Of a DNA stretch of 56,557 nt, positions 29,052 to 33,174 are shown in pieces. The position numbers and the translations under genes were made by a program. The DNA is from Singulisphaera sp. GP187 (GTDB lineage Bacteria > Planctomycetota > GCA-002687715), in contig CAMDTN010000015.1 in the NCBI GenBank assembly GCA_945907755.1, positions 1 to 56,557 on the forward strand. The letters are read 5' to 3'. A model generated the notes under the pieces. That model worked only from the letters and a program-made list of their open reading frames with translations. It ran no database searches and had not been told where the DNA came from. The stretch's first letter is position 1, and every line of letters starts with the position of its first letter.

Positions 29052-29366
29052 TCAGCCGGCGATGCCGGTGATCTCAATTTCGGTGTAGTGCTGACGATGC
29101 CCCGTGCGCTTACGGCTGTGCTTCCGCACGCGGTAGAAAGACGGGTTGAGCTTCACACCCTTGACGAGGGGCGAAACCACCTTGGCCTCTACCGTGGCAC
29201 CGGCCACGAACGGGGTGCCGACGCGCGTGGCGCCGTCGCCCGCCACAAGGCAGACTTGGTCAAACGTGACTTGGCTGTTTTCAGCCACCTCACGGAAGTG
29301 GATGCGAAGGCGCTGGCCTTGCTCAACGCGGTATTGATGACCGCCGTCTTTGATAATCGCGTACAT
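29052..29366 (-). CDS. rplU: Ribosomal protein bL21
   Basis: Large-subunit protein binding 23S rRNA. 104 residues beginning [17 protein letters not shown] with the C-terminal signature [21 protein letters not shown] 29366 is used because it matches the family N-terminus; an in-frame ATG 8 codons upstream is unlikely. It is the first gene of the rplU-rpmA-obg operon, with a promoter at 29409-29437 in the 86-base gap after RNase E/G. Confidence 0.97.
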
Positions 29367-29408
29367 AGGTGTCCTCAAGAGCCGGCACATGGCCAGGATG
29401 GGAGAGGC

Positions 29409-29452: not shown

Positions 29453-30943
29453 CTACTTCAGGCGCTGAATCTCGTAGTCCTCGGTGCCGAGGTCGTGGTC
29501 CCCCACCACCAGGATGGGTTTGCCGTAGGCCTCCTCGATTTGCTTGATCTTCTCTGACTTGTTGCGCTTGATGAAATCCGCCACGCGCACGTTGGCCCGC
29601 ACGCGAACGCGCCTAGCCCGATTGCGGAAACAAATATCGATCACCTCGCGCATGATCTTCAACCCGATGGAATCCACCGTGCGCACAAAGCCGCTGCCCT
29701 TGCAGTGGGTGCAGGGCAAGGCGTTGCTGCGGTGCAAACTGGGGCGCACGCGCTGCCGCGTCATTTCCACCATGCCGAAGGGGCTGATGCGCGCGATTTT
29801 CATGCGCTCCTTGTGATCCTTCAACTGCTCCCGAAGAGCGCGCTCGACATCGCGCTTGTGCCCTTCGTCTTGCATGTCGATGAAATCGTTGACGATCACC
29901 CCGCCCAAGTCGCGCAGGCGCAACTGGCGCGCGATCTCTTCAACCGCTTCCATGTTGGTGCGGAAGGCTGTGTCTTCGAGTTCGCCTTCCTCGCGGTTCT
30001 TGCCCGAGTTCACATCGATGGCCACCAGTGCTTCGGTTTGATCGATCACCAGCGAACCGCCGCTCTTCAGCGTGATCTTGCGCGCGAATACCTTCTCAAT
30101 CTTGTCTTCCAACCCCATCGCGTGAAACAGCGGGCGCCCATCTGTGTACAGGCGCACACGATCAACTTGCTCCGCCATCACTGCGCGTAAGAAATCTTGC
30201 GCCTTGTTGAACACTGCTTCGTTGTCCACCACGACTTCTTTGACATCGGCAGTGAACACATCGCGGATGGTGCGCACCACCAAGTCGCTGTCTTGATAGA
30301 CCAGCGTCGGCGCGCGTTCGCTGCGCACTCGCTTGACGATGGTGTTCCACAACTTCATCAAGTACTCGAGATCCTTCTCGAGTTCTGGACGATTGCGACC
30401 AATTCCTGCAGTGCGGATGATCGTGCCCATGCCTTCCGGCGGATCGATCTCTTCCAGAATAAGTTTGAGGCGCTGGCGTTCTACTGGGTCTTCAATTTTC
30501 TTGGACACACCTGAGCGCGTCAGACTGGGCATCAGCACGAGGTAGCGCCCAGGAATGCTCAAGTATGTCGTGAGCGTCGAGCCCTTCTTGCCAATGCCGT
30601 CCTTGGTGATCTGCACCAACACTTCTTGGCCTTTGCTCACATACTCTTGGATATTGCGCTTCTCGCTGCGGCGGATGCGATCTGGCGGCATATCCCGGTT
30701 GTTCTGCCGGTACATGGGCAAGATATCGCTGGCGTGCAAGAAACCGTTACGGTCGCCACCGAAGTCCACGAAGGCGGCACCGATACTAGGCTCGATGTTG
30801 GTGACCACACCTTTGTAGATGTTGCCTAGGAAGGTCGTAGCGGAGGCACGCTCGATGTAGATTTCTTCGAGGCGGCCATCACACACGATGGCAATGCGGA
30901 TCTCTTCGCTGTCTTCCGCGTTGATGTAGATAGTGCGTTCCAT
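29453..30943 (-). CDS. rng: Ribonuclease E/G
   Basis: Endoribonuclease that starts mRNA decay and processes rRNA/tRNA precursors. 496 residues: the catalytic core without the long scaffold arm of RNase E. N-terminal [20 protein letters not shown]1 domain ([31 protein letters not shown]), DNase I-like catalytic region ([21 protein letters not shown]) and the zinc-link CTHCKGSG (C-x2-C) that joins dimers. AAGGAGG lies 4 bases before ATG 30943, which is chosen over upstream starts. A 440-base leader region precedes it. Confidence 0.95.
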
Positions 30944-31341
30944 GGGCCCTCCTTGCGGAGTGACGATGCGAGGCATCGCCGCCGAACGGAACGCACGGAT
31001 CGCTGGCCCGGAGGCGCGAGGTGGAATCAGAGGGTCAGAGACAGACTCTTGGCAGCTCGCTGGAGCGAAGCAACTTCTGGATGCGGGCTGCGGTGATCAT
31101 GGTGCCTACTGGTTTCCTACTGAATCCTGCTGCATGAGCCATAACTGCTGGCCCATGTTGGTCCCCACGCTCCGGTCTGGCGACCCCCGGTGCACTCACG
31201 GGCGCACATGCGCCCGGCACAACCGGAGCCTCCGAACCGGCACTTGTCTGGTCTTGCGCGCGCCTTGAGCGAATGGCTCTTAGCGGCCCTGAGCTGTCTC
31301 AGGAACGAGGACCGAGCTTGCGGGCTCAATCCCCCTTGCCG
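30944..31341 (-). promoter_or_regulatory. Long structured leader of RNase E/G, or a separate small RNA
   Basis: The only gap above 300 bases in the window, with no convincing gene. From the promoter at 31348-31376 the RNA would run about 400 bases to the RNase start. Within it, GGTCC-CGTTCC (31302-31313) can pair with GGAGCG-GGACC (31160-31173) as an 11-bp closing stem around about 130 bases, which contain hairpins CCTGAG/CTCAGG (31288-31303) and GGGCGCA/TGCGCCC (31200-31215). TGAGCC/GGCTCA can extend the stem. E. coli rne has a comparably long autoregulatory leader. No match to SRP RNA, RNase P RNA or tmRNA was recognised. Confidence 0.4.
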
Positions 31342-31347
31342 TCACCA

Positions 31348-31376
31348 TCTATAGCCCGAAACAACTTCCGCGGCAA
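31348..31376 (-). promoter_or_regulatory. Promoter directly after the secretin gene
   Basis: TTGCCG, a 17-base spacer and TATAGA, starting 11 bases past the secretin stop. It reads into the structured region before RNase E/G. Confidence 0.5.
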
Positions 31377-31386
31377 GCGCCGGGGC

Positions 31387-33174
31387 TCAGTTACCGCCGC
31401 CGCTCTCCGCTGGCGCGACAGCGCGCTTAGGTCCAGTTGGGGCCCCCATGACGCGCATCATCTCGGCTTGAATGGCCTCTTCACGAACGCGTTCTTCGGC
31501 GTCCAAGAAGCGGGCCATATCGTTACTGTCGCGCAAGATCCTCGGGGTAATGAAGATCAGCAGGCTTTCTTTCGTGTTGGACTCCTGCTTGCTGCGGAAT
31601 AGGGCGCCGATGATGGGAAGGTCCCCTAGCAGCGGGATACCGCGTTCGAGATCCGTTTGGCTTTCGCCGATCAGCCCACCGATCACAGCGGTCTGGTTCG
31701 ATTCCAGCAGCAGCGTGGTGACCAGCGTGCTGGAAGCCACCTGCGGCAAGGCGATGCTGACCCGATTAGCGCCCTCGCCCGAGCTGAACACTTGGAAGCC
31801 AGGCAGTTCCGCGGAATTGCCCACCAGTTGCTCCGCTTCGGGGATCACGGTCATCATCACTTTGTCCGTGCCCGGAATCACATGGGGCACCAAGTAAAGC
31901 TGGAACCCTGTCTGCACCGGTGAGTTCGCCGCTTCCTTGATGGAGTATGTCAGGCCGCCGTTCTGGTTGGATTCCGCAACGGTCTCAGCGAAGCGCACGG
32001 TGCGTCCGACGAAGATGGTGGCTTCTTGATTGTCCAAGGCCAGTAGCTTGGGCGCTTGCACGATGCGTGTGCCTTGGTCTTCTTTCAGCAAGTTCAAGGT
32101 GACGGCCATTTGGGTGAAGTCCAACGTGCCGTAGCGCATGGCGCCTTCAAGAGCAGCAGCCGACAATCCCGGAGTGCCCGCAGGGTCCGTAGAAGCGAGG
32201 AGGCCACCGTTCCAACCACCAGGGCCCAAGTGGAAGGGCAAGCGTGTGGGCATGGAACCGCCGCCGATGCTGGCGGAAAGCCCGCCGCTTCCGATGTCCA
32301 ACCCATAGCTGAGCGCGTCGGTGTTTGTTGTGGTGATGAATTTCACATCGATGTAGACCTGCGCAGGTTCAACATCCATGCGCGCCAACATGCGTTCGAC
32401 TTCGTCAACCACGGGCGGAATGTCTTTCACTACGATGATGTTGTTCGTGGCGAAGTACTCGAGCTTGCCAGCACTGGTCAACGCGTTGCGCAGCGCACGC
32501 AGCAGCGCGAAATCCTGTTCAGGGTCTCCCCCGACTGAGGCCGCAGCCTTCGCCTTCAGGGCGTATTCGCTCTTGATCTGCGGGGCGTATGTGGGCGGCG
32601 GGCGCAAATAGCGCACCGGCAGCACTCGCGTGGTCAGTTGTGCTTCCAGCGAACTGGGACGTACCACACGCAAAATCCCGTAGGCTTCATCAACCACTAC
32701 AAAACCCAGGGTGCGCGCCACTGTGTCCAGCGCTGTGCGCCAAGGCACATCCTTCAAACGCAGCCACACGGGGCCTTCAACATCGGGTGCCGAAACGATG
32801 CTAGTACCGGAAACTTTTGCGATGGCATCGATGACCGTCTTGATTTCGGCCCCAGCGAATTCGAAGGTGACGCGGGGTGGCCGTTCCACCAATAGCACGC
32901 CGCCGCGCTGCGAGACCACACAGCCGGTTTGCTCCGCCGCCAAGTCCAACACCGTGCGCCAAGGCGCTTCGCGCAGCGACAAAGTCACTTGGGCTTCGAG
33001 GCCTTTAGCCATGAGGATGTTGGCGCCAGAGCGTTCGCGCAAGTAATTCACAAACTCTGCGATGGGCTGGTTCACCGCCTGCACAGTCACCAAGGCCGCC
33101 TCTTGCGGCACCTGAGATTGAACAGACGGAAGCAGGACAACAGCCGCAACCAAGAGGCAGGTCAAGACACGCAT
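31387..33174 (-). CDS. Secretin (PilQ/GspD family)
   Basis: Forms the outer-membrane gate of a type IV pilus or type II secretion machine. 595 residues. Signal peptide (MRVLTCLLVAAVVLLPSVQS), two short N-terminal STN/N0-like domains (about 25-170), an N1-type domain with the VVVDEAYGILRV and NIIVVKDIPPVVDEVE segments, then the beta domain with QVYIDVKFI, VQAPKLLALDNQEATIFVG and the signature TAVIGGLIGESQ / GIPLLGDLPIIGALFRS, ending LLIFITPRIL. The ATG overlaps the pilOP stop by one base. The short tail (about 50 residues) has no clear pilotin-binding motif. Confidence 0.93.
   Translation of the reverse strand: MRVLTCLLVAAVVLLPSVQSQVPQEAALVTVQAVNQPIAEFVNYLRERSGANILMAKGLEAQVTLSLREAPWRTVLDLAAEQTGCVVSQRGGVLLVERPPRVTFEFAGAEIKTVIDAIAKVSGTSIVSAPDVEGPVWLRLKDVPWRTALDTVARTLGFVVVDEAYGILRVVRPSSLEAQLTTRVLPVRYLRPPPTYAPQIKSEYALKAKAAASVGGDPEQDFALLRALRNALTSAGKLEYFATNNIIVVKDIPPVVDEVERMLARMDVEPAQVYIDVKFITTTNTDALSYGLDIGSGGLSASIGGGSMPTRLPFHLGPGGWNGGLLASTDPAGTPGLSAAALEGAMRYGTLDFTQMAVTLNLLKEDQGTRIVQAPKLLALDNQEATIFVGRTVRFAETVAESNQNGGLTYSIKEAANSPVQTGFQLYLVPHVIPGTDKVMMTVIPEAEQLVGNSAELPGFQVFSSGEGANRVSIALPQVASSTLVTTLLLESNQTAVIGGLIGESQTDLERGIPLLGDLPIIGALFRSKQESNTKESLLIFITPRILRDSNDMARFLDAEERVREEAIQAEMMRVMGAPTGPKRAVAPAESGGGN

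Follow-up and report, generated by a model that had tools for sequence, protein, structure and literature searches.

A long folded leader before the RNase E/G gene in an order of Planctomycetota, with a possible role in feedback control of the enzyme

The RNase E/G gene (rne) of the planctomycete Singulisphaera sp. GP187 is preceded by a long leader. In two genera, selection acts on the sense-strand fold of this leader, and its shape is preserved while its letters change quickly. Within the order, it is kept in position and in foldedness, with details that are genus-specific and quickly renewed. The comparative evidence supports well a transcribed and folded unit with a predicted start. On balance, we lean slightly towards a lineage-specific rne leader that would be used in feedback control of RNase E/G by sensing the activity of the enzyme. 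The window, by which we mean the whole stretch of 56,557 nt that was analyzed, comes from contig C15 of an assembly of 2.68 Mb.

Gene Order and Promoter

On the minus strand of the window, we found in succession a secretin gene, a gap of 443 nt, the RNase E/G gene, rplU, rpmA, and obgE. The gap (30944-31386, minus strand) is present in a single copy in the genome. Its location between the secretin and the RNase E/G gene, given in a preliminary description of this DNA, is confirmed by the sequence. The same description regarded it as the only long noncoding gap in the window, which could be upheld for the region of about 23.7-39 kb, where the other intergenic gaps in the list of open reading frames are below 100 bases. 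The main features are the following.

31387-33174, minus strand: secretin gene, PilQ/GspD-like (PF00263), upstream of the gap
31371-31376, minus strand: -35 element TTGCCG, 10 nt past the secretin stop codon
31348-31353, minus strand: -10 element TATAGA after a 17-nt spacer
30944-31341, minus strand: structured 5' leader, whole unit, 398 nt, with AGGAGG and then the start codon at its 3' end
29453-30943, minus strand: RNase E/G gene, 496 aa (TIGR00757, 498 bits against a cut-off of 326; PF10150, PF20833, PF00575)
29052-29369, minus strand: rplU (ribosomal protein L21; TIGR00061 over cut-off), directly downstream of rne

By its TIGR00757 score, the RNase E/G product is an Rne/Rng-family ribonuclease, and it falls under the equivalog cut-offs of both RNase E and RNase G. 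It has S1, catalytic (RNase_E_G), and thioredoxin-like domains and lacks the C-terminal scaffold. The gene rplU begins about 63 nt after the rne stop codon, and about 380 nt past rne in one relative (G010); the order rne-rplU-rpmA is frequent across the phylum. The junction formed by the secretin gene, the gap, and rne is kept in 10 relatives from the same order, with gaps of 191-734 nt. Those relatives that bear names are metagenome-assembled Planctomycetota, one of them from deep Lake Baikal, and the host group is both freshwater and marine. Other families of the phylum often had a shorter gap before rne, or none (most pairs looked at).

A promoter TTGCCG-17-TATAGA had been proposed beforehand and was borne out by a blind scan in which every sigma-70-like site of ten gaps, the window's gap included, received a simple score: the homologous site was the top-scoring one in 10 out of 10 gaps (one tie). 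Across these ten gaps, the conserved site consists of TTGCCG/TTGCTG or TTGAnT, a spacer of 16-18 nt, and mostly TATnnn; GCGCTTGCCGC at the -35 element is identical in all three species of the window's genus. In a generic promoter scan, the rne promoter was under the reporting threshold. Transcription is predicted to start at about 31341, as deduced from the spacing to the -10 element alone, and the predicted leader measures 398 nt in the window. Its predicted length is 381-598 nt across families f1 and f3, but just 87 and 183 nt in the two f2 genomes.

Two relatives (G003 and G006) have an intrinsic secretin terminator that precedes or overlaps the rne promoter, and hairpins resembling terminators can be read in the gap of three others (G009, G010, and G011), so that rne needs its own promoter in these genomes. 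The secretin terminator of G003 (L005:3573-3601, minus strand) overlaps the rne -35 element and spacer, with TTGCCG inside the hairpin. The generic scan returned no intrinsic terminator in the window's gap; read-through from the secretin operon into rne is therefore possible there. We infer that this dedicated promoter, at 31348-31376, drives transcription of rne.

Selection on the Leader Fold

The strong folding of the minus strand previously pointed out was recovered for the leader of 398 nt, with a minimum free energy of -191.3 kcal/mol and a z of -3.79 (0/100 shuffles as stable). In 10 of 11 leaders, z ranged from -2.6 to -5.7, whereas coding controls from the same loci, run with the one script, averaged -0.86 (sd 1.22). 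The window's genome (G000), G001, and G002 belong to one genus, and their leaders are 48-69% identical.

Pairs of leaders were compared in a base-pair-overlap test in which the conserved columns and gaps were fixed, only the substituted letters were permuted, the sequences were refolded, and the shared pair probability was measured. The overlap beat the permuted controls in 8/8 comparisons covering two genera (0/60 permutations each), the permutation ignoring local differences in base composition. Between G000 and G001, 106 of 133 pairs were shared versus a null of 37 (sd 12), and between G001 and G002, 87 of 144 versus 16 (sd 10). The corresponding figures for G011 and G009 were 64-71 shared pairs versus a null of 14-21, with 71/141 versus 14 (sd 8). 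The coding flanks (secretin and rne) gave z of -2.2 to 2.4 despite their higher identity, and the antisense strand, with z of 1.9 to 5.1 (slips tolerated), was weaker than the sense strand. It is because the overlap lies far above the null, with no comparable effect in the coding flanks and a weaker antisense signal, that we attribute selection to the fold of the sense RNA.

Column-wise covariation was weak on sequence-only alignments, probably because diverged helices were misaligned and the sequences were few (three). RNAalifold compared with column-shuffled controls gave a z of about -5.4 for G000/G001 and for three f3 leaders, and of only -0.95 to -1.87 for the remaining alignments tried. 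As to the conservation of structure in relatives that the preliminary description had considered, the fold of the leader is shared between species, but the 11-bp stem proposed at that time was unsupported.

Architecture of the Leader

When folded separately, the leaders of G000, G001, and G002 exhibited a very similar order of helices: a 5' hairpin, a second hairpin, a bulged hairpin, a long-range arm with an inner hairpin, a pre-ribosome-site hairpin, and a ribosome-site hairpin. In the window, the parts of the predicted fold are as follows.

31307-31334, minus strand: 5'-terminal hairpin, 11 bp, GGGGATTGAGC/GCTCGGTCCTC (P about 1.0)
31288-31303, minus strand: second hairpin, CCTGAG/CTCAGG, with counterparts in G001 and G002
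31242-31257, minus strand: unpaired A-rich segment GCAAGACCAGACAAGT (unpaired probability >0.6)
31187-31226, minus strand: central bulged hairpin CCGGTTGTGCCGGGCGC-ATGT-GCGCCCGTGAGTGCACCGG, the most conserved block of the genus
31163-31186, minus strand: long-range arm, 5' strand GGGTCGC...CCGGAG...GCGTGGGG, pairing with 30997-31021
31133-31157, minus strand: hairpin within the arm, CATGGGCCA/TGGCTCATG, position kept in G001 and G002
30997-31021, minus strand: long-range arm, 3' strand (from folding)
30962-30980, minus strand: pre-ribosome-site hairpin, GGCGATGC/GCATCGTC in G000, with a counterpart in G002
30948-30960, minus strand: CTCC-GCAA-GGAG hairpin, holding the Shine-Dalgarno sequence AGGAGG (30948-30953)

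The hairpin found at the 5' end of G001 and G002 occupies an equal place with another sequence, and the second hairpin reads CCGGGG/CCCCGG in G001 and CCGCGTTGCCG/CGGCGACGCGG (P 0.43) in G002. Both helices of the central bulged hairpin are 95-100% paired, each with one two-sided pair change. An equivalent of the long-range arm is predicted for both G001 and G002; the hairpin within it has changed to TGGGCCCA/TGGGCTCA in the former and to CGCGTGCGGT/GCCGCGCGCG in the latter. Direct reading of the pre-ribosome-site hairpin of G002, GGTGATGG/CCATCACC, revealed two double-sided changes.

The A-rich segment at 31242-31257 is a candidate for RNase E/G entry or cleavage. Short unpaired stretches are also present in relatives, such as GATTGAA in G002 and AAACAACC in G007, and the fraction of A at unpaired leader positions is 0.28-0.40 versus 0.12-0.20 overall. 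This enrichment would suit an RNase E-type enzyme; A enrichment in loops is usual in any case. In the leader of genus g6, ACACCAGTCAACC, as well as CGAAACAA followed by CGTTCCTT, are invariant between helices (L009:1143-1300, plus strand; L037:638-795, minus strand; L008:3218-3380, minus strand) and may mark a site of protein binding or cleavage.

Several observations concern translation. An in-frame ATG at 30976 (minus strand) precedes the likely start by 11 codons and lacks a Shine-Dalgarno sequence; it is located inside the pre-ribosome-site hairpin, and its frame is kept in all three genus members. Special masking of the rne ribosome site was considered and rejected, its mean unpaired value of 0.43 not being distinctive when set against 0.47 for rplU and 0.41 for rpmA. 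At leader position 242 of G000 begins a 21-codon ORF, MITAARIQKLLRSSELPRVCL, starting with MITAA (31035-31100, minus strand); that of G001, MITAATSQKYCPVLDLPSVRT, has an equal start and length at leader position 234, and the G002 counterpart has 25 codons. The G000 and G001 versions disagree at roughly every second residue, and the G000 ORF has a weak ribosome site. The leaders of G007 and G011 lack this short ORF.

The preliminary description had singled out a 154-base element enclosed by an 11-bp closing stem (31160-31313), with a 6S-like small RNA as an alternative to a leader. The pairing of 31160-31170 with 31303-31313 was seen only when 171 nt were folded alone. In the full leader, every pair of this stem had P ≤0.001, its arms were taken by two other helices, and forcing it cost 12.7 kcal/mol; in transcript prefixes, it was at zero or nearly so, with a maximum of 0.15 at 185 nt. 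Since the closing stem is absent from the full leader, the 154-base element is an artefact of the chosen boundaries, and the structural unit, as modeled by folding, is the whole leader. The 6S-like small RNA of 154 nt had in its favor the closing stem of the isolated 171-nt fold, but beyond the failure of this stem to form in the full leader, the locus gave no match to the 6S RNA model (RF00013), and sub-threshold 6S candidates were detected at other loci in five relatives, with one candidate elsewhere in the window's genome. We consequently consider such an RNA at this locus to be most improbable. One 6S-like candidate under the Rfam cut-off is L039 (G001:C6:101859-102041), to which L050 (G000:C16:34984-35077), on contig C16 of the window's genome, is 84% identical. 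Rfam seems to cover the 6S RNAs of these bacteria poorly.

Distribution in the Phylum and Rfam Searches

Two covariance models were used, R2 for the core of the leader in genus g1 and R3 for its 5' half in genus g6. In 294 genomes of the phylum, each recovered its own genus, without cross-detection between genera, and the only addition was a marginal match in G231 (E 0.0046 per genome), as expected by chance. These searches ran with stricter filters, so that weak relatives of the leader could be missed. Aligning both genera jointly, and building the model R1 from that alignment, gave no convincing common structure, and both were discarded.

The search of positions 30900-31450 against Rfam, to which the preliminary description had pointed, returned at E up to 10 a single match, MEG8_2, attributable to chance; no known family thus matches the leader at this level. 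At the gathering cut-off, the ten relatives gave no match to rne5, rne-II, or the L21 leader. The order-wide position and folding, together with the narrow reach of the models, lead us to regard the leader as a feature of this order. Details of the fold differ between families, and any homology of the leaders at that distance would be conjectural.

Discussion

Long rne leaders have been described in other bacteria. In Escherichia coli, a leader of 361 nt mediates rne feedback, and in Synechocystis, RNase E cleavage has been shown in the long rne leader, cyanobacterial leaders measuring 458-622 nt (PMC10989929). The rne-II motif, a structured RNA candidate named for rne, is listed for Pseudomonadales (PMC2864571). 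The planctomycete leader resembles the E. coli rne 5' UTR (rne5, RF00040) in that both are long structured leaders of RNase E-family genes with a dedicated promoter, a predicted one in the planctomycete, but it has no sequence or structure match to it at E up to 10, is GC-rich, belongs to another phylum, and precedes an enzyme without the C-terminal half. It shares with rne-II (RF01756) the association of a structured RNA with rne in one lineage, although the lineage is another one and the covariance model gave no match. Its length also recalls the cyanobacterial rne 5' UTRs, whereas the cleavage in Synechocystis occurs in an AU-rich region absent from the planctomycete leader, and any homology between them would be conjectural. 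As in the case of the L21 and other ribosomal-protein leaders, it is a structured leader before an operon with rplU and rpmA, but it is placed before rne and has no Rfam family match. With an RNase E/G gene directly downstream and a selected leader fold, both found here, the leader is best read as belonging to the functional class of long structured rne leaders, as an analogue of rne5, rne-II, and the cyanobacterial leaders rather than a member of these families. The earlier idea of a long structured RNase E/G leader independent of that of E. coli is supported by the conserved promoter and gene order and by the strong outcome of the conserved-structure test.

Feedback is the best reading because of the identity of the gene (Rne/Rng family) and the analogy with known rne leaders, from which autoregulation by RNase E/G appears likely. 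The promoter of rne would produce an mRNA with an almost fully folded leader of about 400 nt. RNase E/G in excess would bind the folded leader and cut its exposed A-rich stretches, and the cut would bring about earlier decay of the transcript and less enzyme; when RNase E/G is scarce or occupied by other RNA, the message would survive. Against feedback, the enzyme has, with 496 aa, the size of an RNase G, for which we know of no established feedback; the leader is also GC-rich, without the U-rich cleavage region of the Synechocystis type. The differences in fold between families, the short predicted leaders of the f2 genomes, the weak column-wise covariation, and a ribosome site masked no more than those of the neighboring genes likewise speak against it.

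The main rivals of the feedback reading are control of a ribosomal-protein operon and a stabilizing or processed leader without feedback. The leader could be a stabilizing or processing device, or the source of a trans-acting small RNA, as suggested by the hairpin near the predicted 5' end, whose sequence differs in each species of the genus, and by the discrete conserved bulged hairpin. However, the whole leader is conserved up to the ribosome site and no intrinsic terminator was found in the gap by the generic scan, and we deem this explanation unlikely. The regulator could also be a different one, L21 or L27 binding the leader and repressing the rne-rplU-rpmA operon: rplU and rpmA are close behind rne, in an order common in the phylum, and leaders of ribosomal-protein genes are common, with an L21 leader family in Firmicutes. 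The position of the leader before rne rather than rplU, the lack of an Rfam match to ribosomal leaders, and the distance between rne and rplU in G010, which leaves room for separate control of rplU, make such repression distinctly unlikely in our opinion. As for a riboswitch, a thermosensor, or an attenuator, by which a metabolite, temperature, or a short upstream ORF would be sensed, the big compact fold and the MITAA ORF would be in agreement with it. That ORF is nevertheless poorly conserved: it is lacking in G007 and G011, and the G000 version has a poor ribosome site. No Rfam riboswitch matched, and the covariance models miss other loci and families; we therefore give little credence to such sensing.

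Returning to feedback by RNase E/G, the leader may have evolved independently as a sensor of an enzyme devoid of scaffold, with leader feedback convergent in at least three phyla, a tentative proposal that we view with some doubt. If it is true, the arrangement would arise repeatedly, and the scaffold half of the enzyme would not be required. The leader is in addition an RNA of no known family with which to study what RNase E/G recognizes.
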